The notes beneath the pieces are model-generated. The model was not told where the DNA came from, did not search any database, and saw only the letters and a list, made by a program, of their open reading frames with translations. A stretch of 64,000 bases of DNA from Artemia franciscana. Taxonomy: Eukaryota; Arthropoda; Branchiopoda; Anostraca; Artemiidae. Positions 1 to 58,860 of the stretch are shown here, one piece after another. The first letter of the stretch is position 1. Each line of letters begins with the position of its first letter. The DNA lies in assembly GCF_032884065.1 (NCBI RefSeq), contig NW_027062925.1, positions 1 to 64,000 of the forward strand. The letters are read 5' to 3'. Made by a program: the position numbers and the translations under genes.

Positions 1-1878
1 AAATTAAAGATACTCCAAATATTTTAGCCCCACGTCCGGGAGCCTTTCTCAGCGGGAAAAAAAAAGAGGAGAAAACTACACATCAACAATTTAAGACTTT
101 TTTTCAAGACATTATAAAAATGCCACGACAACTAAACCAACACAAAAAAATATAAACAATAAAATAAATAAGAAACAACTCACATTATAAAACAAACACT
201 CCCGCGCTGACACTGACTTTATACACCGATTGCGGCAGAGGAAAGTGTCAATATAAACAATTACTTAAGTTTTTCTAAAGTTACAGTCAGTAATTAAAAG
301 TAGCAAAAGTAGCAAAAATTAAGATTCTTTTCAAATTATCCGAAGAAGCTTAAGACAAAGAAGCAATAGCGAAGTTGCTGCCGTGAAAACAAGTCGTACG
401 TTTTAAGAGTATTTTAGCAATAGCTGAAAAATACTGGACAATACAGCTGGATATAGTTTGTCATGTGAATTTGATGAAAATAAAAAGTTTCAGCTAAGAT
501 GTAACGTTAGCATATAGAAAAAAAGGTTATTGGCGATTTTCATTGCTCAGGGTAATCAAAGAGACAGATCAGGTGGATCCGTGTCTTGCTTTAGTTCAAA
601 CATTTCGTAAAATACCTAATATAAGCGGAATAATCACACACAAAAAGTGTGAAAGCTAGAAGTATCAATGATGAATATTCTTGAAAAACTGGGTTTACTT
701 TCCAAGTCAAGCTAATTAGAGCTTTAAACTTAAACCTTTCATCTTGAAACTGAAGCTGTATTAGAAAAGAGTAGCATTGCTTTACAAAGAGCCAAAGGCC
801 TCATTTATGTTTTTTCCACACGAGATCGTACGGAAACCGCGGTCGTTAAAAACTTAGGAGGGTCTCCATCTGATAGTAAGTTGAAATTTCTATTTCTTCT
901 ATTCAGGACTAAAAGGTATTGGAGGGCAACCAGTCCCCTACCATGCCTTTTAATGTTTGCTTGTTATGGTCCTGTCCTATGTGACGTTTGCTTGTTAGGG
1001 ATTTTAACTGGAGTACTACATGTGTCACTGTAACCAAGCCAATAGAACAAGTAAGGGAATATGAATATAAGTCTATATCGAGGAAAACATAAAAACAGGC
1101 CCGTCACTTCAAAATATGTCGAGTTTTTGCGACAGACCGTAAAAATCTTAGGCGGTCTGTTTTTATATTCGTTTTTGCTGCGTTTTTACGAGCCTGAAAA
1201 ACCATTTGGAATGAGGGGGTGGGTCAAACACCTTAACCTACCCCTTGATACGGCCTGGATTAATACGTTAGAAAAACTCCTTCGGGTTATCCGAAGGATC
1301 AAAGTAATAGAAAGGAAACTGTTCAAAGACAGAATGTCAAACATCTTATTGATGTTATTGGAGCCTTTATTTTACTTTTTAGAGAGTTATTTCTATAACT
1401 ATCTAAAATAACTAATATAATTAGTTCAGTTATTTAAGCTAGTTATTTTATAGTTATTCACTTTTTAGTTAATTACTACTTAGTCAAATAGTTAATATTT
1501 CAATCCAGACTTACTTCGAAACTACTGCTAAGTCCAGATGTCGGTGTTCTTTCCACAGTTCATTATTTTCATCAAGAATGACATGTTTTTCCACGCCCGA
1601 ATCAAGTACCTAAAAGTAAGAACGAATAGATCAAATCTACAACCAACAGTAAAAAAAAAAAAAAATCACATTCATTGGTGAAAATTATTAGTATATGATA
1701 ATCACGTAGTAAATTCAGAATATAAGTTATCATCTTTATTCATGTTTAATGAACTGAAGGTCGTTTTGGCACGATAAAGGAATTAAAACTTCTACAAAAT
1801 TTCCATTGCGAGATCTTTTCATTTTTCCTGACAATATCTAAGAGATCCACTTTAAAGAAGAGTCTATTGGATAATTAA
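1..1878. other. Unassigned AT-rich DNA
   Basis: No gene or known element could be recognised. Two short inverted repeats are visible: ACAGACCG (1132-1139) with its complement at 1153-1160, and TCCTTCGG (1278-1285) with CCGAAGGA (1291-1298). A 116-codon open frame at 1061-1411 spans both but has no recognisable motif. The phrase about a 'ggagggcaacc' stretch near 925-940 resembles the family D repeats further right, so part of this may be decayed repeat. Confidence 0.5.
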
Positions 1879-2233
1879 AACAGCGAAGATGGGTGCACGA
1901 CTAACCTACTTAAACAAATAATCCCTACAATAGCTGAAGTCCTAACGCATATCATTAATCTCAGTTTCAAGGAGGGGACATTTCCTCAGAGCCTCAAAAC
2001 TCCACGAATCATCTCTCTTCACGATATCTATTCTTTAGTATTTTCAAAATTACTGGGAAGATGCATTTACAACAGACTTGTAAAGTTCTAGATGAGCACC
2101 GGATTCTTCACTTCTTCGCAATTCGACTTTCGTAAAGATCACTCTACCGAACACACCATCTTGGTCATTTCTCAATTTATTCACGACGCACTGGATAATG
2201 GAGAAACAGCGGCGAAAAATTGTAGGTTCCACC
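1879..2233 (+). pseudogene. LINE reverse transcriptase fragment (CR1/Jockey-like)
   Basis: The plus strand reads in one frame through typical non-LTR reverse-transcriptase blocks. These are LLKQIIPTIAEVLTHIINLS, then FKEGTFPQSLKTPRIISLH, then SKLLGRCIYNRLVKF, then SSQFDFRKDHSTEHTI and FIHDALDNGET. The order matches the start of the RT domain in CR1/Jockey-type LINEs. The usual linker containing the N-Y-R-P-I-S-L motif between LH and the next block is missing, so there is an internal deletion, and one in-frame TAG follows RLVKF. Both ends are cut: family A repeat DNA follows directly. It is a dead 5'-truncated copy. The clade is inferred from motif wording only. Confidence 0.85.
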
Positions 2234-3655
2234 CCCCCCCCTACTTCCCCTTCACTGAATAAGGTCGAGATTTAATATAAGAGCTCTGAGATATGATATC
2301 CTTCCGAACATTAAATTTTATTAAGATCTAGTCACTCCTTCGTAACTCCTTCGGGTTTTTCCCACCAAGTTTCATCCCGATCCCTCCACTCTAAGCATTT
2401 TCCAAGATTTTAGGTTCCCCCCAATGTCAACGGATCAAGTCGGGATTTAAAAGAAGAGCTCTGAGATATGATGTCCTTCCGAACATTAAATTTTATTAAG
2501 ATCTAGTCACTCCTTCGTAATATAAAAATATCTCATTTTTCTAATTTTTCAGAATTAACCCTCCCCCCATACTCCCCCAAAGAGAGCACATCCGTCCCGG
2601 CTATGTCAATCACGTATCTAGGACTTGTTCTTATTTTTCCCACCAAGTTTCATCCCGATCCCTCCACTCTAAGCGTTTTTCAAGATTTTAGGTTCCCTCC
2701 AATGTCACCGGATCAAGTCGGGATTTAAAATAAGAGCTCTGAGACACGATTTCCTTCCAAACTCCAAATTTCATTAAGATCCGATCACTCCTTCGTAAGT
2801 TAAAAATACCTCATTTTTCTAATTTGTTCAGAATTAACCCCCCCCCCCCCTCCAACTCCCACAAAGAGAGCGGATCCGTTCCGGTTATGTCAATCACGTA
2901 TCTACGACTTGTGCTTATTTTCCCCACCAAGTTTCATCCCGATCCCTCCACTCTGAGCATTTTCCAAGATTTTACTTCCCCACCCCCTCAATTCCCCCAA
3001 TGTCATCGGATCCGGTCGGGACTTAAAATAAGAGCTCTGAGACACGATATTCTTCCAAACTTCAAATTTCATTTAAGATCCGATCACTCCTTCGTAGGTT
3101 AAAAATACCTATTTTTTTCTAATTTTTCAGAATACCCCCCCCCCCCCAACTCCCCAAAAGGGAACATATCCATTCCAGTTATGTCAATAACGTATCTAGG
3201 ACTTCTGGTTGTTTTTTCCTCCAAGTTTCATCCCGATCCCTCCACTCTAAGCGTTTTCCAAGATTTTAGGTTCCCCCTCCAACTCCACCCAGAGTCGGGA
3301 TTCAAAATAAAAGCTCTGAGACACGATACCCTTCTAAACTCCAAATTTCATCACGATTTCATATCCCGTTCGTAAGTTAAAAATACTTCATTTTTCTATT
3401 TTTTCCGAATTAACCGGCCCCCACTCCCCCCACCTATATGGTCAAATCGGGAGAACAACTATTTCTAATTTAATCTGGTCCGGTCCCTGATATACCTGCC
3501 AAGTTTCATCGTCCTAGCTGGCCTGGAAGTTCCTGAAGTAGCAAAACCGGGACTGTTGGTCTGTTTGTCCGACAGCAAATTCTGTTGGACAGACAGACCA
3601 ACAGAATTTGCGATCGCTACATGTCACTTGGTTAATACCAAGTGACATCAAAAAG
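2234..3655 (+). mobile_element. Family A repeat copy A1 (tandem-repeat core plus 3' stem-loop)
   Basis: About four to five tandem units of roughly 280 bp each run through phrases such as 'agagctctgagacacgat', 'gatccgatcactccttcg', 'agagagcggatccgttcc' and 'aagtttcatcccgatccc', separated by C-rich runs. They are followed by the family 3' tail ('ctggtccggtccctgata' onward). The tail ends in a perfect 12-bp stem with a TAAT loop at 3621-3648. A second perfect inverted repeat of 14 bp lies at 3575-3588 and 3598-3611. The 5' end of the element is absent. Short open frames inside are repeat-encoded and have no family resemblance. Confidence 0.85.
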
Positions 3656-5565
3656 CGGGAAACTTCCAACCAATTTATAAGTATTGGTAAATTTACTTTA
3701 ACAGCCAGATTGGGCTTTATTATTTAAATAGGGTTACAGCTTGGTTATGCAAAGCTCTTTGGACCACCCATTTTATTCAGCATTTTTTGTGTTTATTTTT
3801 AAAATTGCAGATACATTATACTAACTGTAACTGACTATTAAATACCAATTAATCTTGCATAACCTCTGAATCTAATTGATATTCTAGGGCTGTGTTCATA
3901 TTGTAGCAAATAAGTATGATACGGGTACTGTCCCCAAATATTTGCCGATGTAATTTTTTAAAGATAGTGAATTCCCCATAGTTACGCAAAAAAATTATTC
4001 ATTAGACTGCAGCACAGGTCAAAACTTAAACAGAATGTCACTAAATGCTTAATATGAACTGAACTCGAAATACCACTATGAAAAGGAGGTAAAGTCACCT
4101 CTTTTCAAGGACCAGTGCTGATTAATAAGCGTTTAAAAGCTTTGTCAAACAGCGTTTGTAACTCCAATTGACTATAGAAAGAAAGTAAAAGAAACAACAA
4201 AGGATTAAGTCAGCTGGATCAGCGATTAAGTCACTCATAGAGAAACACTAATGCAATAGGCCAATAAAATTTGTCAAATTTAAGCTTGAAAAATCGATTC
4301 ACTGAAAGAGCACCAGAAGAATATTCATAATAAAGAGAAAAAGGACATTTATCTGGATGAGACATTTAAAGGATGAGTGTCCCAGTGCGGACGATTTTTG
4401 GCTAAAGTCTATACATTGATAAGGTGGTCACAACTGGCCCTGCGAGGCCAAATTCAGTTTTTTTTTTTTTTTGAATGGAATAACTACAAGGTTGTAATTT
4501 TCTATGGGACAAGGTAGGGCAACTGTCCCTCCCATCCCTCTGTTTACTCCCCCCAGTCCCATGGTTTTTTAAAAAATCTTGTCAAAACTAAAATATTTTT
4601 TAATAAATTCAAAAAAATCGAAAAGAGCTTTTCGCTCTAGAAGATTTTGTTAAAATCATTGAATAACTCCAGAACATAGCTTTCAAATTCCAACTCGATT
4701 CTCAGAAGCCAACTCCCTGTATAAATAAATCGCAGGAATCAACTTGACCTGATGACTCACTGCATAGCTCACGGTTGCTTAAAGAGTAGATACGACTTGA
4801 TCGTGTTAACCCCAAACCGGTTTCTGGACTGGAGTAGGTGAGCTAATTAGTCCGGGAATCAACTATGGTTGAAAAATAGTCGGAACGGAAAACAACAAAG
4901 AAACAACAGTAAAGATTAATACTTAAAAAGATCAGTGTGATTTGAGAACAAAAACAAAACAGTTCAATTCTTACGTAAAATCTTAGAAAATCCGTCAAAA
5001 ATCCTACAGATCAAATTTTCATCCGTCGAAGAACCAGATAATCCGTTTTTGACGGAAAAATCCGTCAAAGTGGAAACGCTAGGTGGCAAGGATATTATAG
5101 CCCCAAGTGTTAAACATCCTATTTAAATACTCTGTACAAACAAATAAACCTGATAAGGCGTTCCTTTTTAACTGTTTTTCAATTTAAGGCCATAAAAAGA
5201 AAGAAAATAGATAGCTGTAAAAAATTTTGGACTAAACTTCAAAGAACAACGCAGATTTTTATTATGAATTTTAAAAAACTGGTGACACAATTTTAGCTCA
5301 TATATCCTACGTAAATCTAAAAGAAACAACTTGCCTGCTTTCTTCGCTTACTCAGCAGATAAAGTACAATAGCCTTTTTCTGAATTTGGCTTAACACTCT
5401 CATTGCTTCAGTTTGAGAACCTGATTTGAATTCTTCTAGAGTTTGTCACAGCGACGCAAAAGTCTGCGTTTCTTTGGGAACCTCCATCCAAATCTGTCGT
5501 ATGTCTGTTCCGCCAGAAAAAAATCGTGTCGGGATTGACGCAGAAGTGGGAATTGGGAAACAGTT
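3656..5565. other. Unassigned, decayed repeat DNA
   Basis: No coding signal was recognised. A T-run followed by 'gggacaaggtagggcaac' and 'caaaaatcgaaaagagct'-like phrases at about 4460-4640 resembles the family D repeats at 40-44 kb. An imperfect inverted repeat AAAAGGAGGT with ACCTCTTTT lies at about 4080-4107. Confidence 0.45.
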
Positions 5566-6232
5566 GAACTAGACATTATCAGGGACATACTTTTTGGAAA
5601 TGGGTATCCCCTTTTATTTATTAATAATACAACTAAACGTAAACTGAAAAGACACTTCCATAAAATCAACTATAATTTACCATGTGAGAATCCCGATAAG
5701 CCCCAAAACATAATTTACCTCCCATATATTCCAAAAATCACTAGAAATCTTAAAAAAATATGCACACAAAATAATCCGTATGTTGTATTTACCAATAATT
5801 TGAAAATCATAAATCTCCTAAATTCTGGTAAAGATAAAACTCCAGTTACTCGCCAAAGAGGTGTCTATAAAATACCATGTGACTGTGGCAAATTCTATGT
5901 AGGGAGAATCAACCAGAATTTCGAGAAACGCCTACAACAGCATAAAGATGATATCACCAAAGCTCTGAACCCTAATATTACTTCTGTTTCTTTTGATTCT
6001 GCTATAAGCAGTCAGGTTTTTGAAAATCCTAGCCACAAAATACTTTTTGAAGAATTCGCCATTATGAGCAATGATCTAGGCATAAAGAAAGTAGTTCGAG
6101 AAGCAATTGAAATCAGACTTAGGAATAATAATAATATTTCCTTAAATAGGGATTTAGGAGAGTATTCATTAAATGCTCTAAACATAAATTTAATTAAAAA
6201 TGACCTCACGAAAAATTTTTCTCCCCACTAGA
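5566..6232 (+). pseudogene. Penelope-like element fragment with GIY-YIG endonuclease domain
   Basis: One open frame covers the C-terminal half of a Penelope-like retroelement ORF. It starts with ELDIIRDILFGNGYPLLFI, the connector seen after the RT domain. Next come NIIYLPYIPKITRNLKKI and VVFTNNLKIINLL, then the GIY-YIG nuclease with GVYKIPCDCGKFYVG (GIY and YIG equivalents plus the paired cysteines of the Penelope-type nuclease). It continues with an FEKRLQQHK helix and the downstream glutamate in REAIEIRL. The frame closes with TAG at 6230-6232. The RT domain itself is not recognisable upstream, so this is a 5'-truncated copy. The nuclease part is intact in frame and all expected motifs are present. 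Confidence 0.88.
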
Positions 6233-6284
6233 TATTCTATTTTGTCTAATCCCAGCTCTTTTAATGTAAAAAGCATTAAATAAT

Positions 6285-6518
6285 GTTCTACAATGGTTCA
6301 GCGAGAATAATATGACATTATTACAGGAGAAAACAGTTTGTATGCTAGTCTCAAAAAAATAATAATACTGAAGTACCACAAATAAATGTTGTAAATCAGG
6401 CTATTAGGCTGGATGACTCTTTCTGCTACCCATGGCTAATTTTTCATAGTAAAATGACATGGTTGAGACACATAGAGTATTTGTTAGGTAATATTAGGAG
6501 TAGATTAAACCTTCTGGC
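6285..6518 (+). pseudogene. LINE reverse transcriptase C-terminal fragment
   Basis: The plus strand encodes VLQWFSENNMTLLQEKTV, then after a stop VPQINVVNQAIRLDD and KMTWLRHIEYLLGNIRSRL. This is the 'L-x-W-F-x-x-N-x-L-x-L-N-x-x-K-T' and 'W-x-x-H-I' order found after the catalytic YxDD box of CR1/Jockey-like LINEs. Several residues are missing between the blocks. It follows the Penelope-like fragment with about 50 bp between and runs into an antisense family B repeat. Confidence 0.7.
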
Positions 6519-6525
6519 AAAAAAT

Positions 6526-6850
6526 ATAAAATTCCACATTTTTGTAGATAGGAGCTTGAAACTTCTACAAAAGGGTTCTCTGATACGCTGAATTCGATTG
6601 TGTGATTTTCGTTAAGATTCTATGACTTTTAGGGGTTGTTGTCCCCTATTTTCTAAAATAAGGCAAATTTTTTCAGGCTCTTAACTTTTGATGGGTAAGA
6701 CTGCACATGATGAAACTCGTATATTTAAAATCAGCATTAAAATGTAATTCTTTTGATGTAGCTATTGGTATCAAAATTCTATTTTTTAGAGTTTTGGTTA
6801 CTATTGAGTCGGGTCGCTCCTCTCTACAGTTCGTTACCACGAACTGTTTG
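6526..6850 (-). mobile_element. Family B repeat copy B1 (hairpin-ended), partial
   Basis: This reads antisense to the longer family B copy at 14.6 kb. The terminal hairpin (9-bp stem ACAGTTCGT with its complement, loop of four) is at 6826-6847. Shared phrases include 'ggtcgctcc', 'atatttaaaatcagcatt' and 'cacatttttgtagatagg'. The tandem-repeat part of the family is not present here. Confidence 0.8.
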
Positions 6851-6929
6851 ATGATCTGTTCTTTGTTTATTTATTTATTTTATCACTTCTTTACATGTCT
6901 TTTATCTCTAATCTATTAACGTCCTTTTT

Positions 6930-7330
6930 CTTTTCTAGGCTAAGCAGTAGCTGAGCAGTAAATTTCGCAGTAAAAAACTAACTGTGTAAGCCTGTACACT
7001 GTTGCCGTCTTTTTGTGTGATAGCCTTAATTTTCACAGAGAAAGGCGTTGCAGCAGACCAGGCTTTATGTGATTTTAAAGTTAAAATAAAAATAAAGGGC
7101 TTTCAACCTTAAATTCGTTTCATTCTCCGTAAAATTCTTGTTTAAGTCTTTTTTCTCCTTGTTTTTCACATTTTAAGAGAAATAGAGCCCTTAACATTTT
7201 TGAACTAGTTATATTTTTTTGCTCATCCTTTGCTAAACGAATTTACTGCTCATTCCAGCTCTTCTGCTCCTTGTGAAGTCTCTACTCCTCAACCAAGAAA
7301 TTGCATCCCGAGTCCAAAAACAAGAAAATA
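6930..7330 (-). repeat. Diverged family C fragment (inverted)
   Basis: The reverse complement of this stretch matches the 3' part of family C (about 29220-29620). Shared landmarks are the T/C-rich lead into 'tctag', 'agcagtaaatttcg', 'ctgtctttttgtgtg', 'agggctttcaacc'-type text, 'ttttttgctcatccttt' and 'aatttactgctcatt'. Divergence is clearly higher than between the two long family C copies, so this is an older copy. Confidence 0.65.
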
Positions 7331-8111
7331 AATTGAAACATTTGATTTTCTCTATCTAAATAAAGATTGGATATTCTTATAACTTATCATCTGCTTAGTA
7401 CAGTTATTACGGTTTTTACGATTCGGACAAACATTTTAGTGGGGAGATCGAACCCCTACCACCACCACCCTGTATATGGTATTGTATTAGCAAATTCAAA
7501 AGCAATCTATTGTTGGCGCATGTCTCCTTTTTCTTTGACAAAAAAGAAGATAAATGCCATCATAACTCAATGAGTTCCTATACTGTCAAAACTCGTACTT
7601 GTCTCTTTTTTTATCTTTGTAACGGCAGGATATATAAAAATTCCAACTGCACCCTTCAATTCATTGTACCGAGTTTTACTCACGAAATATGTTGACTCAA
7701 CGCTACATAGACTGAAGGATATAGACTCAACGTCTGATGTAGACTCAATGATGTAGACTCAACATCTGATGCAGAGTCAACGTTAAGACTTAAGGTCAAA
7801 TCCAACACTTCTAACCTCTGAAATTATTGCTAAAATCGTTTGCTGAACTGTATTAGGACTAGAAAGACAATATATGTTCAATCACAATTCAATCCTCCTG
7901 ATCTACATTATCCTGCTGACTTTCCCTTTGAGAACTGCTTAACAAATGGTTTTTGGTATTTATGTCTAGCGTGTGAAAATGTCAGGCATGAACTTTAAGC
8001 ATAACAGCGGATTCTGTTGCAGAATATTTCTACAGTCACATAATCATTACAATCATCAACATTTTGCATATTTATTACATTTGATAAATTTAATATCAAA
8101 TGTGCCATCAC
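7331..8111. other. Unassigned; short direct repeats at 7690-7785
   Basis: No gene was recognised. A cluster of near-identical pieces of the form 'gatgtagactcaac' / 'tctgatg' occurs several times between about 7690 and 7785, a small irregular tandem repeat. A few short open frames overlap on both strands without conserved motifs. Confidence 0.4.
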
Positions 8112-9104: not shown

Positions 9105-10637
9105 AAACAAGACCCAAGAGCTCATATGGCACTTGTTACGAGGCAAGAAGAGCTAAGAGCCAAGAGCTCATATGGTATGAGCTCTAACAAAATTCTAAGA
9201 ATCAATAGATTGATTTAAAAGAAAAATCAGAGGCTTAATTCCGGTCAGGATTTAAAATAAGGACTCTGAGTCACGATGTCCTTCTAAATATAAAAATTCA
9301 TTGAGATCCGATTACCCACTCGTAAGTTATAAATGCCTAATTTTTCCTCTCCCTTCAGCCCCCCAGATGGTCGAATCTGGGAAAACGACTTTATCAAGTC
9401 AATTTGTGCAGCTCCCTGACACGCCTACCAATTTTCATCGTCCTAGTACGTCCAGAAGCACCAAACTCGTCAAATCACTTAACCCCTTCCCCAACTAACC
9501 CAAAGAGAGCAAATCCAGTACGGTTACGTCAATCACTTATCAAGGACATTTGCTTATTCTATCCACCAAGCTTCATCCCGATTCCTCCACTCCAAGTGTT
9601 TTCCAAGATTTACCCCTCCGACTCCCCCCAATGTCAAAAGATCTGGTCAGGATTTGAAATAAGAGCTCTGAGACATGAATTCCTTCTATATATCAAATTT
9701 CATTAAGATCCGATCATCTATTCGTAAGACAAAAATACCCCAGTTTTCACGTTTTCCAAGAATTCCGGTTTCTGCCTCCAACTCCCCCCAATGTAACAGG
9801 ATCTAGTCTCATTAAGATCTGGTCACGCTTTCGTAAGTTACAAATACATCAATTTTCAAAATTACCCCCCCCCCCCCAACTCCACCAGAAAGAGCAGATC
9901 CGGTCCGGTTATGTCAGTCACGTATCTTAGACGGGTTTAATTCTTCCCATCCAGTTTCATCCTGATCACTCCGCTTTAAGTATTTTCTAAGATTCCCCCC
10001 CCTCCAACTGCCTCCTTCAATGACGCTGGATCCGGTTGAGATTCAAAATAAGAAATCTGAATTACGAGGTTCTTCTAAATATGAAGTTTCATGAAGATCC
10101 GATCACTCCTTCGTAAGTTAAAAATACGTCATTTTTTCTAATTTCTCAGAATTACCCCCCCCCCCCCAATAGAGCGGATCCATTCCAATTGTGTAAATCA
10201 CATATTTAAGACTTCTGCTTATTTTTCCCACCAAGTTTCATCCTGATCCCTCCAATCTAAGCATTTTCCAAGATTTTAGGTCTCCCCCTCCCACCCCCCA
10301 CCCGCCAATGTCACCAGATCCGGTAGGGATTTAAAATAACAGCTTTAAGACACGATATCCTTCCAAACATCAAATTTCATCAAGATCTGATCAACCGTTC
10401 GAAAGTTAAAAATACTTCAATTTTTCCGAATTAATGCCCCGCCCCCAGATGGTCAAATCGGGAAAACAACTATTTCTAATTTAATGTGGTCCGGTCCCTG
10501 ATACGCCTGCCAAATTTCGTCGTCCTAGCTTACCTGGAAGTGCCTAAAGTAGCAAAACCGGGACCGACAGACAGACAGACCGACAGAATTTGTGATTGCT
10601 TTATGTCACTTGGTTAATACCAAGGGCCATAAAAAAA
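9105..10637 (+). mobile_element. Family A element copy A2, near full length
   Basis: This is a complete-looking member of the tandem-repeat-cored family. The 5' end has two 'gagctcatatgg' copies. The second forms an inverted repeat GAGCTCATA-TGG-TATGAGCTC-type hairpin at 9164-9184. The core holds about four units of 250-300 bp, each with C-runs, 'gagctctgag', 'gatccgatcac' and 'aagtttcatcctgatcc'. The 3' tail has 'ctggtccggtccctgata'-type text (here gtggtccgg), a run of 'gacagaca' repeats and the stem-loop CACTTGGTTAATACCAAG at about 10608-10625. It ends in an A-rich tract. It lacks terminal inverted repeats, coding capacity and an obvious target-site duplication. Confidence 0.88.
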
Positions 10638-19651: not shown

Positions 19652-21655
19652 GAAGAGAAATCCCAGCTGGTGTAGAACAAAACAGTAATTGTAATAACAA
19701 TATCACCCAGATCAGTCGGTAAAGATGACCAGCCAATAAGTAGAAATCCATTGCCCCCAGACATTCTGGCTAAGGCCACCTTTGGTTGGTGCCAGACCAA
19801 ATCAACGAGGGAGTAATTACTCGTATTCTTTTGTCCCACCTTGTTATTTCAGTGCACTTCTAACATAGGGCAACTCTTTCGCAGGTTCAAATTATTTTTT
19901 TGAACCTAGCTATGATACCATTACTTGAACCCTCCTATGATAACTCCACCCCAAAAACAAGAAAAAAAAATCAAGATAAATAAGAATGTAAAATAAATAC
20001 TATAGGGTATTCTCCCTATATTTTGAAAAGTAGGCAAAATATTTCAAGATTCTTTCTTGTGTTCATATTTTCTTTTTGGCTGTTTAGTTTTGCACGTGGT
20101 GAAATTTTCGGCTAGGGGGGGGGGGCTCACGGAGGGAAATATTGGAGGAGTTTTCAGAGGGCCACTTTGTTTGATTGGGAATTTTTTTACAGGAGGATAT
20201 TTCCGAGGGAATATAACATCCATTAATCTAAAGGAAAAGCTTATATTTTAACGAGGCTTATTTTGACACGTCGAATTGACGAGTATTTTCACAAGGCCCT
20301 ATTACCATAAGGTATCCATGCAAATATTTATGTGTTGTGTAATATTTAACACATAAACGCTAAAATAAGCTGAATAAGCTAACTATAAATAAACCACTTT
20401 TTATTTCCTTAATCATGTCCAAAGACTATTTGTATAAAACCCAAAAGCACATATATACACTTATTCAAAAAAAAGAAAAAAAAAGAAAAAAAACAAATTT
20501 GACATCATGTTACTCGTTTAAGGCAAAAAGCCATTTCAATCAAAATGCTTGAGCATTGTGCAAGTTAGGTTTACTTTTGCAGCCATTAGGGTAGCCATTA
20601 GTCATTAGGGCAAGGGCCCCCAAGGGTATGAGTAACTACTTATTTTATTCAGAAGGACTAATAAATAAATCCTTGAGGATAAATAAATTTGTTAGACATT
20701 GTTGAATTCAAGATCATAAGGCTATTTTTATCCTGAGATGAATATATGTTGTTTTCCAAAAGACATCTCAGGAAAATGACCAAAAGTTATAGAAATAATA
20801 TTTCTTATGAAAATATTAATTTGTCAATTATATTAGAAAGATGAGAACGTTATACCTTGATAGACTACGAATCGAACAGAAATCTCACTGATTTTTTTTT
20901 AAAGATTCCCTTTTTTATACAAAAGAAAAAAAAATGAGGTACATAGCATATTTTAGGGCAAAGGCTCATTGATAAATTTTAAAAGAAACAAAGACAAAGT
21001 AACGTTTCGAATAAAACATTGAGCAAAAGTAAATCCAATTGCTTGACGGATTATATTCCCTACTATTCTCTATATCCTCTATCAAACTAAGATCAAATAG
21101 AGCCTAAATTTTGGAATATTTGGAAAGGACTCTTCTGAAATGGAATAAAAAGTTTTAATATTTTTTTTTTTTTTAATAAGTCAGAAGTGATTGAAAGGTA
21201 ACAAGGCTCATTAATTAACTCTTTGGCATATAGTCCATTCGCTACAAAACAATAAGTGAAACTGGAGGTCAAAATGGTTTTTTGAATGAGAAAGAATGAA
21301 ATGATGTCAAAATTTGCTGCTCATGGGCCCACTCCCCTCTATTTGTGCTGTTATTTAGCTCAAATGGCCCACTTATTACGTGTAAGCTGAGACTTCAAGC
21401 CGAATCTTCCGATATACCATATCAATACAATTCTACTTACTCTTATCTTACGTCTGCGAACACGATGAAGCCGCGTTGCCAACTGGACAGTGTTCAGCGC
21501 CTGGTGATATTCTGTCTGCCCACCAGAAACCCGAGCGTGAGCAATGACTGTTGTCTGGCACGTGACAACAATCCTAGAAAAATTCCATAATAAATCAATT
21601 TAGCGATTTAATTCCAAGGTTTTGTTGGAATGGAATCGCAAGAACCGGTAAGAAT
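19652..21655 (+). repeat. Left arm of a 2.0 kb inverted repeat
   Basis: This arm is the reverse complement of 24675-26707, with differences of only a few percent (small indels in A/T and C/G runs, scattered substitutions). Alignment by eye starts at 'gaagagaaatccc' (19652) and stops after 'ggtaagaat' (21655). The arm contains an exon-like 122-bp block on the minus strand (21452-21573). Otherwise it is AT-rich without recognisable coding sequence. Confidence 0.92.
21452..21573 (-). CDS. Candidate internal exon (left arm copy), unrecognised
   Basis: On the minus strand a polypyrimidine stretch and 'tttttctag' precede 122 bp of distinctly GC-richer sequence that ends at a GTAAGA donor, with a second GTAAGT eight bases on. 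Two frames are open. One gives a cysteine-rich peptide (DCCHVPDNSHCSRSGFWW and later CPVGNAASSC). The other gives IVVTCQTTVIAHARVSGG then TEYHQALNTVQLATRLHRV. Neither is recognised. The block differs from its partner in the right arm at one base, less than the flanking DNA, which hints at constraint but on few sites. It could be a real exon of an inverted-duplicated gene, or just a GC-rich piece of a repeat. Confidence 0.3.
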
Positions 21656-22017
21656 TTTACCAAATAAATAGTTATTTGTTAATTTCAAGAAGATGTGAAC
21701 AGAAATTAAATAAAATCCAGAATTTCGGAGAGAAAAGACCCCAACCTCCCCCCCCCCACCCCGGGTACTTTTATACCGTTTTAACTGCGTTTGGCTATAC
21801 CGATCGTGAAATTGCTATGAGGAGCCTCCTTTAGAATGTTGTTAAGCTTATTCTATAACGCATAAATAATTGTAATATAAAATCCTCAATGGACTACCTC
21901 ACAACAGGAAAAAATGCCACAGTCTCATCGCTAGGATGTGTTATATTTCGTTACCTATTGTGTAACACATAAGAAAATCCATGCACATTATTTTCTTTTC
22001 AATCTCTGACCCGTGGG

Positions 22018-22869
22018 TAGTGGGGCGAGGTCTGTAATTCTATATTTAATCTCTGAACAACACTGAACTTGAAGAGAAGATGAAAACTTGGCAAAACAAG
22101 GTCAGAGCAGCTTGAAAAACAAGGTCTTTTCAATCTCTGAACAACACTGAACTTGAAGAGAAGATGAAAACTTGGCAAAACAAGGTCAGAGCAGCTCTTG
22201 TTGCGACACATACAAAAGGGTTTCTTCATAAACAATAAATAAGGCCATATGCTAAGAGAAACATTAATCTTTACTAAGTCAACCCTTTTGTATCCACAAT
22301 TCATCAATCAAACAACTAACAAATTTTTAAACAGCAGCGTGGGGTCTAGGATGAACAGGAGGAAAGTGGGGTGCCATATGGAGACCCCAACTTTCTGATG
22401 AAATGCTGCATCGTAATGAATGCTTTAACGACAACTTTAAAAAGCCGAAACAAAATATTTATGATTCTAATCGGCGATGAGATTCAAAACTAATTTTAGA
22501 GAGATGTTCCGAACACCATTTTTTTCGTTAAAGGATAATTATGCTATAGTGTTACAGCATTAGTTTGAGGGGCATTGGCCCCATTTTATGAAGAACAGTT
22601 TATGCTATTTTGAACTTCTAATTTTGCTCTGACTATATGTCAACAGGGTAGTATCTTTTCGTGAGCACCATGAAATAGAGCCATGTCTCATTTTTTTTAC
22701 ATCTTTCTTATAAAATTGCAAATTTTCTCAGTTTATTTCTATGCATAAATAAATCATCTACAATGTCATTACACTGTATTCTGTATTTATTTAAAAGATT
22801 GATAAAACTAAAAAAAAACTCAAACGAGGCTTATTGAATAAATATAGAATTACAGACCTCGCCCCACTA
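22018..22869. mobile_element. 852-bp segment with 31-bp terminal inverted repeats
   Basis: The 31-bp arms (22018-22048 and 22839-22869) are exact complements, with the word TGGGGCGAGGTCTGTAATTC inside. The interior has the 65-bp tandem duplication and no coding sequence. The same terminus, about 85-90% alike, forms both ends of the foldback at 24300-24446. This fits a small non-autonomous TIR element. Target-site duplications were not clear. Confidence 0.6.
22048..22196 (+). repeat. 65-bp direct duplication, period 84
   Basis: Copies at 22048-22112 and 22132-22196 are identical as read ('ctctgaacaacactgaac' through 'caaggtcagagcagct'). A short spacer 'tgaaaaacaaggtctttt' separates them. Perfect identity implies a recent event. 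Confidence 0.9.
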
Positions 22870-22878
22870 TCTCGTTCG

Positions 22879-23448
22879 ATATCTCGGAAAGGGTTTATGT
22901 TAAGAGAATGAAACTTTCAGGGATGAATCTACAGACTAAAGTATGTTCCGGGAAGGTATTTTGAAGCAACTACCTCTACTCTTTCTCCCTCTAGAGGGCC
23001 CTGACCTTTGCTGACCTTTAAAAATATGTGTCTTATAAAATTGAAACCTTGCAAAATAGATCTTCTGCTTAATTGAAGTACAACAAAATTGTTTTCAGCT
23101 TCATAACTTTGCTCAGTTCTATTTTATAAGGTTTTAAAGATATGCAAATATATTTCCTAAATTTTGAAAAAAAATGTTGATATGGCTCAAAATTCTACTC
23201 AAATAACAGGAATTGCATTTTCAGAACTAAAGGCAGAGAAAAAGCAACTAGTAACTGAAAATTAAGATAAAATGTTGTTTTGTCAAAATTTCAATAGGTT
23301 TAGACCTGTCATGTAGGCAAATTTCAGGGCCCTCTAGAGGGAGAAGGAGTGGAGGTGGATACTTTAAAATACCTTCCCGGGACATACTTTAGTCTGTAGA
23401 TTCATCCCTGAAAGTTTAATTTTCCTAACCTAAACTCTTTCTGAGATA
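22879..23448. repeat. Inverted pair of about 125 bp
   Basis: Arm 22879-23004 is the reverse complement of 23325-23448 at roughly 85% identity. Shared words include 'cagggatgaatctacaga', 'gggaaggtatttt' and 'ccctctagagggccctga'. The latter contains a self-complementary CTAGAG-type centre. The loop is 320 bp and AT-rich. The left arm starts ten bases after the end of the 852-bp TIR segment. Confidence 0.8.
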
Positions 23449-24299
23449 GCAAGAAGTCAATTAACTAGAATTTTACCATTTATTTTTTATTATTGACTTC
23501 CCCCTCGATTTGTTATGATTATTCGATCCAAAAAAAACATTGTACGTCCCTTTAGTAAGAATAGCCTACTCTTTTAAGGCGGGGGACTGTCCAATGGGGG
23601 TTGATAGCTATGATCATGTAGGCTAGTGCCTCATAGAATACAAGGCATTCAGGGTGCCGAGTGAGCGTTTTAGCTAGAAAATAGACGAGTGTCGGCATAT
23701 TCTTTGAATCCATATCAGATTTCTTTGCTTCTCGGAGCCCTTAGCCAATATTTCTGAAAGGCGAGGATAAAAAATAAAGGTGAATTTGGTAAATGAAAAA
23801 GTTACTTCTGTAAAACAATTAGGGGTGGGGAGTGAGAGGATGCAGGGGAAAATTTACAGATAGTTTATGACTAGTAGGCGAAGCCACATCTAACTGTGAC
23901 CTCTAAGATTCTGATCCATTAGACTTGAGCCCCTTCCCCTGCCAAGGCGTAAATTAATGAAAATGTTGGGAGATGAAGAATATGTTCCTTTTCTTAATCT
24001 TTTCAACGAAAGTACAGTTTTTTTTTTCAAATTTAAACCGCTCCCTAACCCAGTCGGCAGAAGTAACCTATACCAACCTCTTTCCCAATTAGGCAAAGAA
24101 GACTCCTGGGGGTGGAATTTAAATTGAATGGAAGAGTATTCTTGGTAAATGTTTAGTTTCGTTCCAGTTTAGAGCACTTAGAAATGTCAATTCTGGAAGC
24201 GCATCCATTTCTGGTTGACCCTCCTCATCCATGGGGCAAACTAAAAATGTATAAATTGGGCCTTCTTACAGTAAACATTTCCTATAGAGCGAAGCATAC

Positions 24300-24446
24300 T
24301 AGTCTATGAGACCTGTGGGTAGCAGGCCGAGGTCTGTATTCTATATTTATTCAATAAGCCTCGTTTGAGTTTTTTTAGTTTTATCAATCTTTTAAATAAA
24401 TACAGAATACAGACCTCGGCCCGCTGCCCACGGGGCTCATGGACTA
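24300..24446. repeat. Compact foldback (MITE-like) of 147 bp
   Basis: The two ends pair over about 50 bp (ATGAG..GTGGG.AGC..GGCCGAGGTCTGTATTCT type text against its complement), leaving a loop of about 45 bp. The ends match those of the 852-bp TIR segment, and the loop (caataagcctcgtttgag) matches inverted sequence next to that segment's right end. It is therefore a deletion derivative or sibling of that element. Confidence 0.8.
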
Positions 24447-24674
24447 ATACCCTTCACTCTATTGGTAATGTTACATCTAAGGAAACCCACTTTACGCATT
24501 TTTAGTCTCGTTGGAGGGGGATTTTAGAAACCTAAAAAATGAATAGCCTACGCTTCTCTAATAATGACAAAGAAATAATCGTCAAAAGAAATAATATGCG
24601 ATCGTCAGAATCTTGCTATATGCAATAATACCCACTTTAGAGCACTTGGAACGAATCTAAACATTTACCGTATT

Positions 24675-26707
24675 ATTCTTACCAGTTCTTGCGGTTCCAT
24701 TCCAACAAAACCTTGGAATTAAATCGCTAAATTGATTTATTATGGAATTTTTCTAGGATTGTTGTCACGTGCCAGACAACAGTCATTGCTCACGCTCGGG
24801 TTTCTGGTGGGCAGACAGAATATCACCAGACGCTGAACACTGTCCAGTTGGCAACGCGGCTTCATCGTGTTCGCAGACGTAAGATAAGAGTAAGTAGAAT
24901 TGTATTGATATGGTATATCGGAAGATTCGGCTTGAAGTCTAAGCTTACACGTAATAAGTGGGCCATTTGAGCTAAATAACAGCACAAATAGAGGGGAGTG
25001 GGCCCATGAGCAGTAAATTTTGACATCACTTCATTCTTTCTCATTCAAAAAACTATTTTGACCTCCAGTTTCACTTAGTGTTTTGTAGCGAATGGACTAT
25101 ATGCCAAAGAGTTAATTAATGAGCCTTGTTACCTTTCAATCACTTCTGACTTATTAAAAAAAACAAAAAAACATTAAAACTTTTTATTCCATTTCAGAAG
25201 AGTCCTTTCCAAATATTCCAAAATTTAGGCTCTATTTGATCTTAGTTTGATAGAGGATATAGAGAATAGTAGGGAATATAATCCGTCAAGCAATTGGATT
25301 TACTTTTGCTCAATGTTTTATTCGAAATGTTACTTTGTCTTTGTTTCTTTTAAAATTTATCAATGAGCCTTTGCCCTAAAATATGCTATGTACCTCATTT
25401 TTTTTTCTTTTGTATAAAAAAGGGAATCTTTAAAAAAAAATCAGTGAGATTTCTGTTCGATTCGTAGTCTATCAAGGTATAACGTTCTCATCTTTCTAAT
25501 ATAATTGACAAATTAATATTTTCATAAGAAATATTATTTCTATAACTTTTGGTCATTTTCCTGAGATGTCTTTTGGAAAACAACATATATTCATCTCAGG
25601 ATAAAAATAGCCTTATGATCTTGAATTCAACAATGTCTAACAAATTTATTTATCCTCAAGGATTTATTTATTAGTCCTTCTGAATAAAATAAGTAGTTAC
25701 TCATACCCTTGGGGGCCCTTGCCCTAATGACTAATGGCTACCCTAATGGCTGCAAAAGTAAACCTAACTTGCACAATGCTCAAGCATTTTGATTGAAATG
25801 GCTTTTAGCCTTAAACGTGTAACATGATGTCAAATTTGCTTTTTTTTTTCTTTTTTTTGAATAAGTGTATATATGTGCTTTTGGGTTTTATACAAATAGT
25901 CTTTGGACATGATTAAGGAAATAAAAAGTGGTTTATTTATAGTTAGCTTATTCAGCTTATTTTAGCGTTTATGTGTTAAATATTACACAACACATAAATA
26001 TTTGCATGGATACCTTATGGTAATAGGGCCTTGTGAAAATACTCGTCAATTCGACGTGTCAAAATAAGCCTCGTTAAAATATAAGCTTTTCCTTTAGATT
26101 AATGGATGTTATATTCCCTCGGAAAATTTTCCCTTGGAAATATCCTCCTGTAAAAAAATTCCCAATCAAACAAAGTGGCCCTCTGAAAACTCCTCCAATA
26201 TTTCCCTCCATGAGCCCCCCCCCCCCTAGCCGAAAATTTCACCACGTGCAAAACTAAACAGCCAAAAAGAAAATATGAACAAAAGAAAGAATCTTGAAAT
26301 ATTTTGCCTACTTTTCAAAATATAGGCAGAATATCCTATAGTATTTATTTTACATTCTTATTTATCTTGATTTTTTTTTCTTGTTTTTGGGGTGGAGTTA
26401 TCATAGGAGGGTTCAAGTAATGGTATCATAGCTAGGTTCAAAAAAATAATTTGAACCTGCGAAATTACTGGAAACTGTAGAAGAGTTGCCCTATGTTAGA
26501 AGTGCACAGAAATAACAAGGTGGGACAAAAGAATACGAGTAATTACTCCCTCGTTGATTTGGTCTGGCACCAACCAAAGGTGGCCTTAGCCAGAATGTCT
26601 GGGGGCAATGGATTTCTACTTATTGGCTGGTCATCTTTACCGACTGATCTGGGTGATATTGTTATTACAATTACTGTTTTGTTCTACACCAGCAGGGATT
26701 TCTCTTC
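24675..26707 (-). repeat. Right arm of a 2.0 kb inverted repeat
   Basis: Reverse complement of 19652-21655. The outer end joins family C DNA: the last shared bases are 'gggatttctcttc', and family C text ('ttttacacaaagcttg') starts at once. A diverged relative of the outer 100 bp of this arm occurs at 48905-49010 ('atggaagtgcacaaaggt'). Confidence 0.92.
24757..24878 (+). CDS. Candidate internal exon (right arm copy), unrecognised
   Basis: Plus-strand partner of the exon-like block in the left arm: acceptor 'tttttctag', 122 bp, donor GTAAGA, one base different (GGC/GAC in the cysteine-rich frame, or GCG/ACG in the alternative frame). The two copies would be transcribed towards each other from opposite strands. 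Same caveats as for the left copy. Confidence 0.3.
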
Positions 26708-35737: not shown

Positions 35738-35890
35738 GTTAATCTGGTCAGTTTCCTGATGCGCCTGCCAAATTTCATCATCCTAGCTTACCTTTAAGTG
35801 CCTAGACTAGCAAAACCGGAACCGACAAATCCGACCAACAGAACTTGTGATCGCTATATGTCATTTAGTAGATACTAAGTGTCATGAAAA
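35738..35890 (+). mobile_element. Family A 3' end (copy A6)
   Basis: This has 'ctggtcagtttcctgatg', 'tgccaaatttcatcatcc' and 'agtgcctagactagcaaa', as in the other 3' tails. The stem-loop follows in decayed form ('gtcatttagtagatactaag') and an A-rich end. No tandem core precedes it. The unidentified coding-like block takes its place. Confidence 0.8.
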
Positions 35891-36572: not shown

Positions 36573-37140
36573 TTAACAAGAGCTAAGATCTCATATGGCA
36601 CTTGTGACGAGGCAAGAAGAGCTAAGAGCCAAGAAACTCATATGGTATGAGCTCTAATAAAATTCTAAGAATCAATAGATTGATTTAAAATAAGAGCTCT
36701 TAGTCACAATGTTCTTCTAAACATCAAAATTCATCAAGATCTGATCACCCACTCGCAAGTTATAAATACCAAACCTTTTCTAATTTTTCCTCTCCCTTTG
36801 GTCCCTCCAGATGGTCGAATCCGGGAAAACAACTTTACCAAGTCAATTTGTCCAGCTCCCTGACACGCCTATCAATTTTCATCGTCCTAGCACGTCCAAA
36901 AGCACCAACCTCGCAAAATCACTGAACCCCCCCCCCCCCAATTCAACCAAAGAGAGCGAATCCAGTACGGTTCCGTCAATCACGTATCAAGGAAATTTAC
37001 TTATTCTATCCACCAACCTTCATCCCAATTCCTCCACTCCAAGTGTTTTCCAAGATTTCCCCCTCCAACTCCCCCAATGTCAAAAGATCTGGTTGGGATT
37101 TGAAATAAGAGCTCTGAGACATGAATTCCTTCTAAATATG
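36573..37140 (+). mobile_element. Family A 5' part (copy A3)
   Basis: It opens with the family 5' end ('acaagagctaagatctca', 'tatggcacttgtgacgag', 'actcatatggtatgagct') and about one and a half core units. It is cut at about 37140, where unrelated sequence begins. The subterminal TATGGCACTTG motif is intact. Confidence 0.85.
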
Positions 37141-37351
37141 AAAATCAAATCAAGACAGCAACTGCAGTTTATGATTTCTGTAAAGTCAACATTGAAAAAA
37201 TAAACTTTCACTTTATTGACAAAAAAATGCTGAAGCTTTTAGATTGGAGTTAGCATCACAATTTTTAAATGATGGTTTTAAAATTTTTTCATTATTTCAA
37301 ACCACTAAATACAAATCAAATTGAAATAAGGAGGACTAGTGATAGTCCTAA

Positions 37352-46462: not shown

Positions 46463-46783
46463 CTAGAATAAAAACGGAAGTTAATGTTAGAAATGATCGG
46501 TTACCATTTCTAACGAATGTAGTCGTAAGAAAAAGATTTTTTATATTCTACTACTACTACTAACAACTCAGCACGGCAAAAATCGCCCAAGGCCAATACA
46601 TTTGAACATATCGCTGCAATAACCAACTCCATTCAGTTTCGATCTTAGTTCACTCCCATGGTATTCTCGCGAAATCTTGACTTATTATCTCTTCCTACTA
46701 GAGGCCTTCAAGGGCATCTTGCTTTGCGTTTTGCTCCAGCTGGATTAACAAAAAGCAGAACTTTTGGTTGCATATCATTCTTC

Positions 46784-47230
46784 ATTTATAAAACGTACCC
46801 AAGCATTCTTGACCTTCTTTTTTCATTTATATCTTAACGTTACCAGGGAAACGGGATTCATTTATAAAACGTACCCAAGCTATCTTGACGTGCTTTTTTC
46901 ATTTATATCTTAATGTTACTAGGACAATGGGATACATTATAAGATGTACTCAAGCCATATTGACGTTCTTTTTTTCATTTATATCTTTACGTTACCAGGA
47001 AAACAGGATTCATTTATAAAACGTACCCAAGCTATCTTGACGTGCTTTTTTCATTTATATCTTAATGTTACCAGGACAATAGGATTCATTTATAAGATGT
47101 ACTCAAGCCATATTGACGTTCTTTTTTTCATTTATATCTTTACGTTACCAGGAAAACAGGATTCATTTATAAAACGTACCCAAGCTTGGTGTTCTTTTTT
47201 TATTTATATCTTAACGTTACCAGGAATAAG
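46784..47230. repeat. 76-bp tandem repeat with dimeric higher-order structure
   Basis: Six units start at 46784, 46860, 46936, 47012, 47088 and 47165. Each has 'atttataa(a)acgtaccc' or 'aagatgtactc', a T-run, 'atttatatctt' and 'gttaccagga'. Units 2 and 4 are one type and units 3 and 5 another, nearly identical within type, so units 2-3 and 4-5 form a 152-bp dimer repeat. The array makes a 120-codon plus-strand open frame that is an artefact of the repetition. Confidence 0.93.
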
Positions 47231-49830: not shown

Positions 49831-50287
49831 AATGCTATTAATAAATAAACATTAAAATAGATAAACAAAAAATAAAATAAAAGTTGACAAAGCATCATGC
49901 TCTGACGAAGCAGGAGGAAAGAATCAAACCAGCAATTAAATAGAAACATTCAAGATTTTTAGACTAAAGGTAAAGTGGTATAGTTAAAATACCCAAGAAT
50001 TTAGCGTAATTAGAGGAGAAATATCACAACACTCAGACCCTCTATATAAGTGCATATTTATTATTCACTATATATTATTTGTTATTTATTATTTTATATT
50101 TATCATTATTTTTAATAATTTATATTTTTTATGTTCGGTTGTGTGGTGTGTGTTTGTTTCTGTGTTTGTGCTGTTGTATTGGTGATTTCTTTTTTCACTA
50201 TATAAAACATACAAATAACGAAGCAAACTCAGTTTGACCCTATGAAACTCAGTTTAACAGTTCAATTTTCTTATTCTAATTACTTAC

Positions 50288-51747: not shown

Positions 51748-53697
51748 ACAAGAGCTTAGATGGCACTTGTGACAAGGTTGGAAGGGCTAAGAGCTCTTAT
51801 GGTATGAGCTCTAGCAAAATTCTAAGAATCAATAGATTGCTTTAAAAGGAAAATCAGAGGCTTAATCCCGGTCGGGATTTAAAATAAGAGCTCTGAGTCA
51901 CGAGGTCCTTCTAAATATCAAAATTAATGCAGATCCGATCACCCACTCGTAAGTTAAAAATACCTCAATTTTCTAACTTTTCTTCTCCCTTCAGCCCCCC
52001 AGATGGTTGAATCAGGGAAAACAACTCTTTCAAGTCAATTTGTACAGATCCCTTACACGCTTACCAACTTTCATCGTCCAAGCACGTCCAGAAGCACCAA
52101 TGTCAATAGATCTGGTTTGGATTTGAAATAAGAGCTCTGAGAAATGAGTTCCTTCTAAATATCAAATTCAAAATATCAAAAGTTATTTTTATTTAAAAAT
52201 AAAAGTTATTTAAATATCAAAAGTTAAAAATACCTCAATTTTTCCAAACTAACAACCCACAGCTCCCCCAAAGAGAACGGATCCATACCAATTATGTCGT
52301 TCTCGTATCTATAACTTGTGTTTATTCTTCCCATCAAGTTTTGTCCACATCTCTCCTCTCTAAACGTTTTCCAAGATTTCTGTTTTCCCCATCCAACCCT
52401 CTATGTCCCCAGATCCGATTCGAATTGAAAATGGAGCATCTGACACATAATATTCTTCTATATATTAAGTTTCCCTAAGATCCGATCACCCATTCGTAAG
52501 ATACCTCGATTTTCACGTTTTCCATGAGTTCCGGCTTCCCCTCCAACTCCCTTCAATGTCACCAGATCTGGTCGGGATTTGAAACAAGAGTTCTAAAGCA
52601 CAAAATCCTTTTAGATATCAAACTTCATTAAGATCTAATCACCCGTTCGAAAGTTACATATACCTCATTTTTTCTAATTTTTCTGTATTACTCCCCCCCC
52701 CCAACTCCACCAAAGAGAGCGGATTCGGTCGGGCTATGTCAGTCACCAATCTTGGACTTGTGCTTATTCTTTCCACCAAGTTTAATCCTGATCTCTCCAC
52801 TTTTAGCGTTTTCCAAGACCCCCTCCGCCTTAATGACACTGGATCTGATCGGGATCTAAAATAAGAGATCTGAGTTTCGAGGTCCTTCTAAATATGAAAT
52901 TTCATTAAAATACGATCCCTCTTTCGTAAGTTTAAAATACCTCATTTTTTCTAATTTTTTAGAATAAATCCTGTCCCCCCTCCAACTCCCCTAAAAAGAG
53001 CAGATCCGTTCCAGTTATGTGAATCCCATATCTAAGACTTGTGCTTATTTTTCCCACCGTGCTTATTATTTGTGCTTATTATTTTCATGAGATTTTAGGT
53101 TCCGCTTCTCCCCCAAACTTATCCAAATCCGGTTTGGATTTAATATAAGAGGTCTGAGACACGATATCCTTCCGAACTTCAAATTTCATAAGGATCTGAT
53201 CACTGCTTTGTAAGTTAAAAATACCTCATTTTTCAGAATTAACTCCCCCCCTCCAACTCTCTCAAACAGAGCAGATCCGTTCCGGTTATGTTAATAACGT
53301 ATTTAGGACTTGTGCTTATTTTCCCCACCAAGTTTCATCCCGATGCCTCCACTCTATGGGTTTTCCAAGATTTTAGGCCCCCCTCCAATGTCACTGGATC
53401 TGGTCAGGATTTAAAATAAGAGCTCTGAGACACGATATCCTTCCAAATATCAAATTTCATTAAGATCCCATAACCTGTTCGTTAAGTTAAAAATACTTCA
53501 TTTTTTTTCTATTTTTCCGAATTAGCCGGATCCCAACTCCCCCCCCCCCAATGGTCAAATCGGTAGAACGACTATTTATAATTTAATCTGGTCCGGTCCC
53601 TGATACGCCTGCCAAATTTCAGCTTACCTGGAAGTGCCTAAAGTAGCAAAACCGGGACATCGCTATATGTCACTTGGTTAATACCAAGTGCCATAAA
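51748..53697 (+). mobile_element. Family A element copy A4, longest member
   Basis: This has the 5' end with TGGCACTTG (51761-51769) and a 'tatggtatgagctct' arm, then about six core units with C-runs. The 3' tail closes with the stem-loop CACTTGGTTAATACCAAGTG at 53671-53690. The last arm overlaps CAAGTGCCATA (53685-53695), the complement of the 5' subterminal motif. About 1.95 kb, with no coding capacity. Core units are more diverged than in A1. Confidence 0.88.
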
Positions 53698-57966: not shown

Positions 57967-58860
57967 AACAAGAGCTAAGAGCTCATATGGCACTTGTGAC
58001 GAGGCGAGAAGAGCTAAGAGCCAAGAGATCATATGGTATGAGCTCTAACAATATTCTATGAATCAATAGATTGATTTAAAAAGAAAAATAAGAGGCTTAA
58101 TGCAGGTCAAGATTTAAAATAAGAGCTCTGAGTCACAAAGTCCTTCTAAATATCAAAATTCATTAAGATCCGATCACCCACTCGTAAGTTATAAATACCT
58201 AATTTTTTCTAATTTTTCCTCTCCCTTTTGCCCTGCAGATGGTCGAATCTGGGAAAACGACTTTATCAAGTCAAATTGTGCAGCTCCCTGACACGCCTAC
58301 CAATTTTCATCGCCCTAGCACGTCCAGAAGCACCGAACTCGCCAAATCACTGAACCCCTCCCCCCAGCTCCCCCAAAGAGAGCGAATCCAGCACGATTCT
58401 GTCAATCACGTATCAAGGACATTTGTTTATTCTATCCACCAAGCTTCATCCCGATTCCTCCACTCCAAGTGTTTTTCCAAGATTTCCCCCTCCAACTCCC
58501 CCCAATGTCAAAAGATCTGGTCGGGATTTGAAATAAGAGCTCTGAGACATGAATTCCTTCTAAAAATCAAATTTCATTACGATCCCATCATCTATTCGTA
58601 AGATAAAAATACCCCAATTTTCATGTTTTCCAAGAATTCCGGTTTCCCCCTCCAACTCCCCCGAATGTCACAGGATCTGGTCGGAAATTGAAATTAAAAC
58701 TTTAAAGCACAAGATCCTTCTAAATATCAAATTTTATTAAGATCTGGTCACCCTTTCGTAAGTTACAAAGATAGCAGATCCGGTTCAGTTATGTCAGTCA
58801 CGTATCTTAGACAGGTTTCTATTCTTCCCATCCAGTTTCATCCTGATCTCACCGCTAAAT
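57967..58860 (+). mobile_element. Family A 5' part (copy A5)
   Basis: A clean 5' end: two 'gagctaagag' words, TATGGCACTTG at 57986-57996, 'tcatatggtatgagctct', then about two core units. It stops at about 58860 without the 3' tail. It gives a 120-codon open frame (58239-58601) that recurs with changes in A2 and A3. The frame is also open in part there, but the peptide (Ser/Pro-rich) is not recognised and is probably repeat-derived. Confidence 0.85.

Follow-up and report, generated by a model that had tools for sequence, protein, structure and literature searches.

A tandem-cored repeat family in the window

Family A is a repeat that occupies six places in the window, ie the whole 64,000-nt stretch of Artemia franciscana DNA analysed here. 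Self-BLAST of the window returned these places only, at 2230-3655 (A1), 9105-10637 (A2), 35738-35890 (A3), 36573-37155 (A4), 51748-53699 (A5) and 57966-58860 (A6), all as plus-strand hits; the only two minus hits both came from an inverted duplication within A1. With five of the pieces as queries, 6,535 of the 64,000 bases of the window were covered. A preliminary description of this DNA had listed the same six pieces, which recurred here at its positions and in one orientation, and had assigned one plan to all of them. The family is indeed common to the six, but the whole plan is not, as both ends are present only in A2 and A5 (Table 1). The hairpin end, described previously as the 3' end, is found in A1, A2, A3 and A5, and the opposite end, described as the 5' end, in A2, A4, A5 and A6.

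The core of the element is built from a unit of ~280 bp, of which up to 20 register copies are present in the window; the spacing is mostly 280-305 bp, with a shorter step of ~160 bp in many copies. The tandem core of variable number noted earlier is confirmed. So is the lack of coding capacity: the stop-to-stop frames in the pieces include four of 119-139 aa, the longest being 139 aa, and none of these four gave a Pfam match. No Rfam family matched the window. The hairpin CACTTGGTTAATACCAAGTG occurs three times in the window when up to 3 mismatches are allowed, against 0.01 expected, and none of 100 shuffles reached three; a fourth, diverged copy lies in A3. By itself TATGGCACTTG is a poor marker of the family, giving 28 matches with up to 2 mismatches against 15.4 expected, although no shuffle reached 28.

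Table 1. Positions in the window of family A pieces and their parts.
Feature	Position	Strand	Basis
A2, two-ended element, 1525 bp (5' end 10632, 3' end 9108)	9108..10632	-	end comparison
A2, 5' subTIR + inverted repeat (hairpin), T run before	10602..10631	-	DNA fold z -3.4
A2, GTCK-type microsatellite, left module	10570..10586	-	sequence
A2, 3' subTIR CAAGTGCCATA + terminal palindrome region (imperfect in A2) + TTG end	9108..9139	-	sequence
A2, inner right-module hairpin AGAGCTCATACCATATGAGCTCT; imperfect in A4, A5, A6	9163..9185	-	fold + sequence
A5, two-ended element, 1948 bp; tandem units 51855-53535	51749..53696	-	end comparison
A5, 5' subTIR + inverted repeat hairpin	53666..53695	-	fold z -5.7
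A5, 3' subTIR + end	51749..51769	-	sequence
A1, left end + units, without right end; hairpin 3620-3649	2230..3655	-	BLAST, fold, sequence
A3, solo left-end fragment; diverged hairpin 35857-35886	35738..35890	-	fold z -1.15, equalled by 25/200 shuffles
A4, right end 36577-36609 + units, without left end	36577..37155	-	BLAST, sequence
A6, right end 57969-58002 + units, without left end	57969..58860	-	BLAST, sequence

In A1 the microsatellite beside the left hairpin is duplicated in inverted order (3553-3611), giving an extra long hairpin. Several features of the window lie apart from family A. At 19652-26707 there are inverted arms of ~2 kb, 96-100% complementary, around a centre of ~3 kb, ie a large foldback-like or palindromic element. 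An exon-like ORF of the glutathione peroxidase 7/8 type (PF00255), probably from a host gene, is present at 50280-50645 on the minus strand, and a 76-bp unit forms a tandem array of ~6 copies at 46781-47226. A further repeat family, with a period of ~270 bp and G runs, lies at 42217-44435; it is present in one of the genomic contexts examined below (L013) as an insertion target.

Abundance, ends and insertion sites

The genome assembly searched contains 1,270,528,402 bases in 6468 contigs. An 18-nt left-end pattern (up to 2 mismatches) gave at least 17,278 matches, compared with 34 for the reversed control, and a 30-nt right-end pattern (up to 3 mismatches) gave at least 19,252, compared with 0 for its control. 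Nineteen contexts were taken, which hold 20 of the first 22 left-end matches listed, on contig C1; all the sampled matches were perfect, and the context sample is therefore not random. A two-ended element is held by 14 of the 19, mostly of 1.8-2.6 kb with two of 4.3 and 4.8 kb, and the other five contain none. In a comparison of 17 elements, the most similar two were 97.3% identical over 1.98 kb. The two longest copies (L013 and L020) are in places similar to parts of the Helentron contig C4112 described below, up to 92% over 527 bp; these stretches may be either captured pieces or shared nested repeats. In L030 (C1:11579000-11588600) a 2.98-kb unit, each with a left-end fragment and the same flank, is repeated three times in tandem at 99% identity. 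Its head-to-tail order was considered as a rolling-circle concatemer, and rejected because the 2.98-kb tandem duplication takes in the flanks. In L014 a complete copy comes after one truncated at its 3' end, which fits a rolling-circle tandem; being a single case, it was set aside.

When both ends were aligned and reverse-complemented the published HINE plan (PMC4067079, PMC7492417) appeared, in the direction opposite to the earlier reading. On the minus strand the element starts, after TT, with ATGGCACTTGG-TATTAA-CCAAGTGACAT, a 5' subTIR and its inverted repeat; the 5' end can equally be set out as a T run, TATGGCACTTGG, the TATTAA loop and CCAAGTGACATA. The hairpin is followed by a GTCK microsatellite, the tandem units of ~280-300 bp, the 3' subTIR CAAGTGCCATA, a short GAGCT-CTT-AGCTC palindrome and a final TTG with TT beyond it. 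Read in this order, the element lies on the minus strand, with the right module as its 3' end and the hairpin as its 5' end. The preliminary description had the direction reversed: its 3' hairpin corresponds to the 5' subTIR and inverted repeat, and its 5' end to the 3' end with the palindrome.

One consensus was common to the 26 left ends and 21 right-end matches found in the window and the 19 contexts. In the left-end consensus the 5' subTIR has a complementary inverted repeat nearby. The 3' subTIR, which sits 17 nt from the element end, is exact in 15 of the 21 right-end matches, and the terminal palindrome is perfect in 10. The fold of the left hairpin was equalled in 0 (A1), 1 (A2), 0 (A5) and 25 (A3, diverged) of 200 shuffles; for the right module the figures were 0 (A2), 0 (A5), 7 (A6) and 49 (A4) of 200, ie not uniformly better. 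The two ends are asymmetric, with a subterminal match of just 11 nt, in keeping with the lack of TIRs reported previously. They read TTATGG...CTCTTG in a T run, and the marks of canonical Helitrons (5' TC, 3' CTRR, A/T insertion) are absent. Nor was the MITE arrangement of inverted repeats at the very ends with a fixed duplication found, the ends being asymmetric and the gain at most two or three T.

Insertion sites were examined by joining the flanks of 17 copies (16, and A5) and searching the collected DNA for the corresponding empty sites. Matches of L023, whose flanks are simple, and of L027, which matched itself, were left out, as were 7 of 23 pairs, which were wrongly anchored on an inner right-module hairpin or on a duplication. 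Good empty sites were obtained for three copies. L025 has 17 empty-site paralogs of 71-79% identity, 14 of them gapless across the junction. Five paralogs of 67-70% identity were found for L013, four of them gapless, and one of 88% identity for L010. The four found for L018 are weak, since the match extends just 15-17 nt beyond the junction. No usable empty site was found for 13 of the 17 copies tested. The target in L025 is ATTTTTTAGAG of a common repeat, and that in L013 is a TTYTT-like site in the repeat that is also present at 42217-44435 of the window.

In all four cases, three good and one weak, the insertion splits a T run and there is no duplication beyond a possible TT. Compared with most empty sites, the filled site has two extra T positions in L025 and L013, and three T in L010. 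The extra T may be part of the element or a TT duplication, two origins which are indistinguishable here; the same ambiguity is known from the HINE and Helentron literature, as described in PMC4067079. With that proviso, the test for insertion without target-site duplication that had been proposed is answered by the empty sites, which place the insertions in T runs. The preference for T is also apparent in the copies themselves, as at least five T precede ATGG in 21 of the 26 left ends (exactly five in 16), against a background TTTTT frequency of 1.1% in the sequences studied. TT follows 19 of the 21 right-end matches, and the other two are internal duplications in L018 and L019.

Rep-helicase genes in the genome

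The DUF6570 domain (PF20209) is common in Helentron proteins, and a search of the genome for it gave 47 matches. Contig C4112 contains a 2446-aa ORF with a UCH domain at residues 35-306, DUF6570 at 741-867, Rep at 1014-1209, PIF1 at 1725-1946 and an endonuclease at 2310-2414. The Helentron set of Rep (PF14214), helicase (PF05970) and C-terminal AP-endonuclease (PF14529) is therefore present in one frame. The second Rep motif, VEFQQRGSPHIH (RGSPHIH), has S between G and P, and S at that position is given as a Helentron mark in PMC4067079. The minus-strand ORFs of C4112 were considered as RPA-like and discarded, three frames having no Pfam match and one no PDB match.

The right module of family A starts 163 nt past the last codon of this ORF. 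Over 67 of 67 nt it is identical to the non-autonomous copies L018 and L019; the match stops 26 nt before the end of those two copies, and the contig closes with 5 nt that do not match. The stretch in common with L018 and L019 is ~100 nt, at 88% and 96% respectively, as against 67 nt or less for the other elements compared. A second Helentron copy, on C11, is 96.2% identical to the first over 10.7 kb and continues ~40 nt into this right module, where it degenerates. Because the right module follows the stop in both copies, it appears to be part of the Helentron, whose coding strand agrees with the corrected polarity of family A. With up to 6 edits allowed, no left-end match was found ahead of the ORF, either in C4112:1-9807 or in the 5.1 kb of C11 covered, and the single 6-edit matches inside the two genes look like chance. 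Neither the left nor the exact right terminus of the Helentron was reached in these two copies. An autonomous Rep/helicase element sharing both termini had been proposed as a search target; what was recovered is the right module, up to 26 nt before its end, and no left end was seen.

Other Rep-helicase genes were also examined. A search with the Rep profile PF14214 gave 7435 first-look candidates, and the 150 scored were all above the cut-off at 197-205 bits, a uniformity which suggests one swamping family. Two of these 150, L032 (from C4:41848600) and L033 (from C4:32093500), have a 5.7-kb element in common that is 99.6% identical and holds an open ORF of 1663 aa. It has the motif RGLPHAH, (AT)n borders and a 3' GC hairpin followed by CTAG; no endonuclease match was found in its protein. 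By these marks it is a canonical autonomous Helitron, and it looks recently active. The family A ends are absent from both copies, and the abundant canonical Helitron was rejected as the family A driver for want of ends in common with the two copies read. Also rejected as a partner was a RepHel fragment (L023/L029) that lies, by chance, at a distance of 5 kb from a copy of the family: its motif is RGMPHAH, it has a LINE inside it and no right end follows in the 17.8 kb, which argues for no link to family A.

A second RepHel family was observed at C6:2726500-2736400 of the assembly (G000), where an ORF on the plus strand at 3-8048 of the extracted region (L034) encodes 2682 aa with DUF6570, Rep (RGAPHVH) and PIF1. 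Its UCH domain is at the C terminus, the position of the endonuclease in Helentrons. Family A ends were not found in L034.

The UCH/USP-type domain (PF00443) is N-terminal in the C4112 protein and C-terminal in L034, and the Cys and His boxes are in place in both families. This predicted USP-type deubiquitinase domain is the unusual point of the partner Helentron protein. Deubiquitinases reported in Helentrons are OTU and VTD domains, according to the portions of PMC9741609 that were available, and a UCH/USP domain is not named in the accessible portions of the literature on Helentrons and ubiquitin that was searched. It seems as likely as not that a third deubiquitinase class, of the UCH/USP type, was acquired by Helentrons in this animal, convergently with OTU and VTD. 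If so, deubiquitination would be a general need of rolling-circle transposons. A UCH domain in the driver would allow a connection of rolling-circle transposition with the removal of ubiquitin to be tested.

Family A as a probable HINE

Family A is very probably a HINE, a non-autonomous Helentron-associated rolling-circle transposon with a satellite-like core, moved by a Helentron protein encoded elsewhere. The anatomy, the copy number, the insertion into T runs with nothing duplicated beyond TT, and the Helentron with the right module after its stop codon are matters of direct observation; we infer from them that a Helentron of the C4112 type moves family A. The Helentron/DINE-1-type class proposed in the preliminary description is upheld by the T-run empty sites and by the presence, in the same genome, of a Helentron that carries the right module.

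In rolling-circle transposons generally, RepHel nicks the 5' end of the donor, the helicase displaces a strand, the 3' palindrome marks where it ends, and this strand is then joined to the target. In family A, a Helentron protein with Rep, PIF1 helicase and AP-endonuclease would nick the T run at the donor copy, one strand would be displaced up to the 3' palindrome, and the displaced strand would be inserted, with no staggered cut, into a T run at the target. These strand-displacement steps, and the parts played in them by the palindrome and the subTIRs, are what we would expect by analogy with that scheme. The preference of family A for T runs fits nicking between T by the endonuclease, as proposed in PMC4067079.

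The partner link would be accidental if the right module near the Helentron gene were a non-autonomous piece inserted there by chance. With more than 19,000 right ends in the genome chance neighbours must be common, and neither of the two C4112-type copies read has the exact terminus. The right module nevertheless starts at the same point after the stop in both copies, within one continuous alignment of 96.2%, and the matches of ~100 nt to L018 and L019 (88% and 96%) exceed the 67 nt or less of other elements, so that this explanation is an unlikely one. Mobilisation of family A by the abundant canonical Helitron rather than by a Helentron has the numbers in its favour, ie the 7435 first-look candidates with all 150 of those scored above the cut-off, two copies of 99.6% identity and several frames open for more than 1500 aa. 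It is very unlikely given that the copies read, L032 and L033 (2 of 150), are without the family A ends and have (AT)n borders, a GC hairpin with a CTAG end, RGLPHAH and no endonuclease match.

A MITE-like reading, in which a cut-and-paste element with subterminal inverted repeats makes a 2-bp TT duplication at its target, deserves no greater weight. Such a duplication would also give the two-position gain of L025 and L013; L010 gains three T. The asymmetric ends, with the 11-nt subterminal match alone, and the presence of the family A right module on a gene for a RepHel-endonuclease make it highly improbable, and the same T ambiguity is described for HINEs in PMC4067079.

As a HINE, family A is a new family of a known class. 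The literature search returned no description of it; the letters of the hairpin were found in no paper searched, and none of the papers listed joined Artemia with Helentron or DINE-1. The assignment links a very abundant Artemia repeat (at least ~19,000 right ends) to a named system of transposition, corrects its polarity and offers a candidate autonomous driver. Work on oysters and flies has argued that satellite-like arrays are dispersed in genomes by Helentron derivatives, and family A is a probable crustacean case of this. For an A. franciscana assembly of 1,270,721,445 bp in 6486 scaffolds, rolling-circle elements have been put at 8.81% of the genome (PMC11492255); in the available portions of that report the Helitron content is given as a total only, with no Helentron or HINE family.

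The C4112 protein resembles known Helentrons in its Rep, its PIF1, its C-terminal endonuclease and the 'S' of RGSPHIH, and differs from those with OTU or VTD, the only such domains named in the portions of PMC9741609 available, in having an N-terminal UCH/USP-type domain (PF00443) instead. With the HINEs of Metaseiulus occidentalis and DINE-1 of Drosophila (Thomas et al. 2014, PMC4067079, in the portions available) family A has in common a 5' subTIR 2-4 nt from the end, a 3' subTIR, a 3' palindrome and optional tandem repeats, as well as T-rich targets with at least two T on each side and no target modification. The inverted repeat adjacent to the 5' subTIR of DINE-1 (PMC4067079) is also present in family A. 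The 3' subTIR is 17 nt from the end in family A, compared with 38-60 in the mite (PMC4067079); family A differs from these HINEs and DINE-1 also in its core units of ~280-300 bp, in its host and, as far as searched, in its sequence. Cg_HINE of Crassostrea gigas (PMC7492417), likened here by its published description only and from a different host, has like family A two modules flanking satellite-like tandem arrays, a TT target, and a left module of subTIR, IR and a GTCY/GTCK-type microsatellite.
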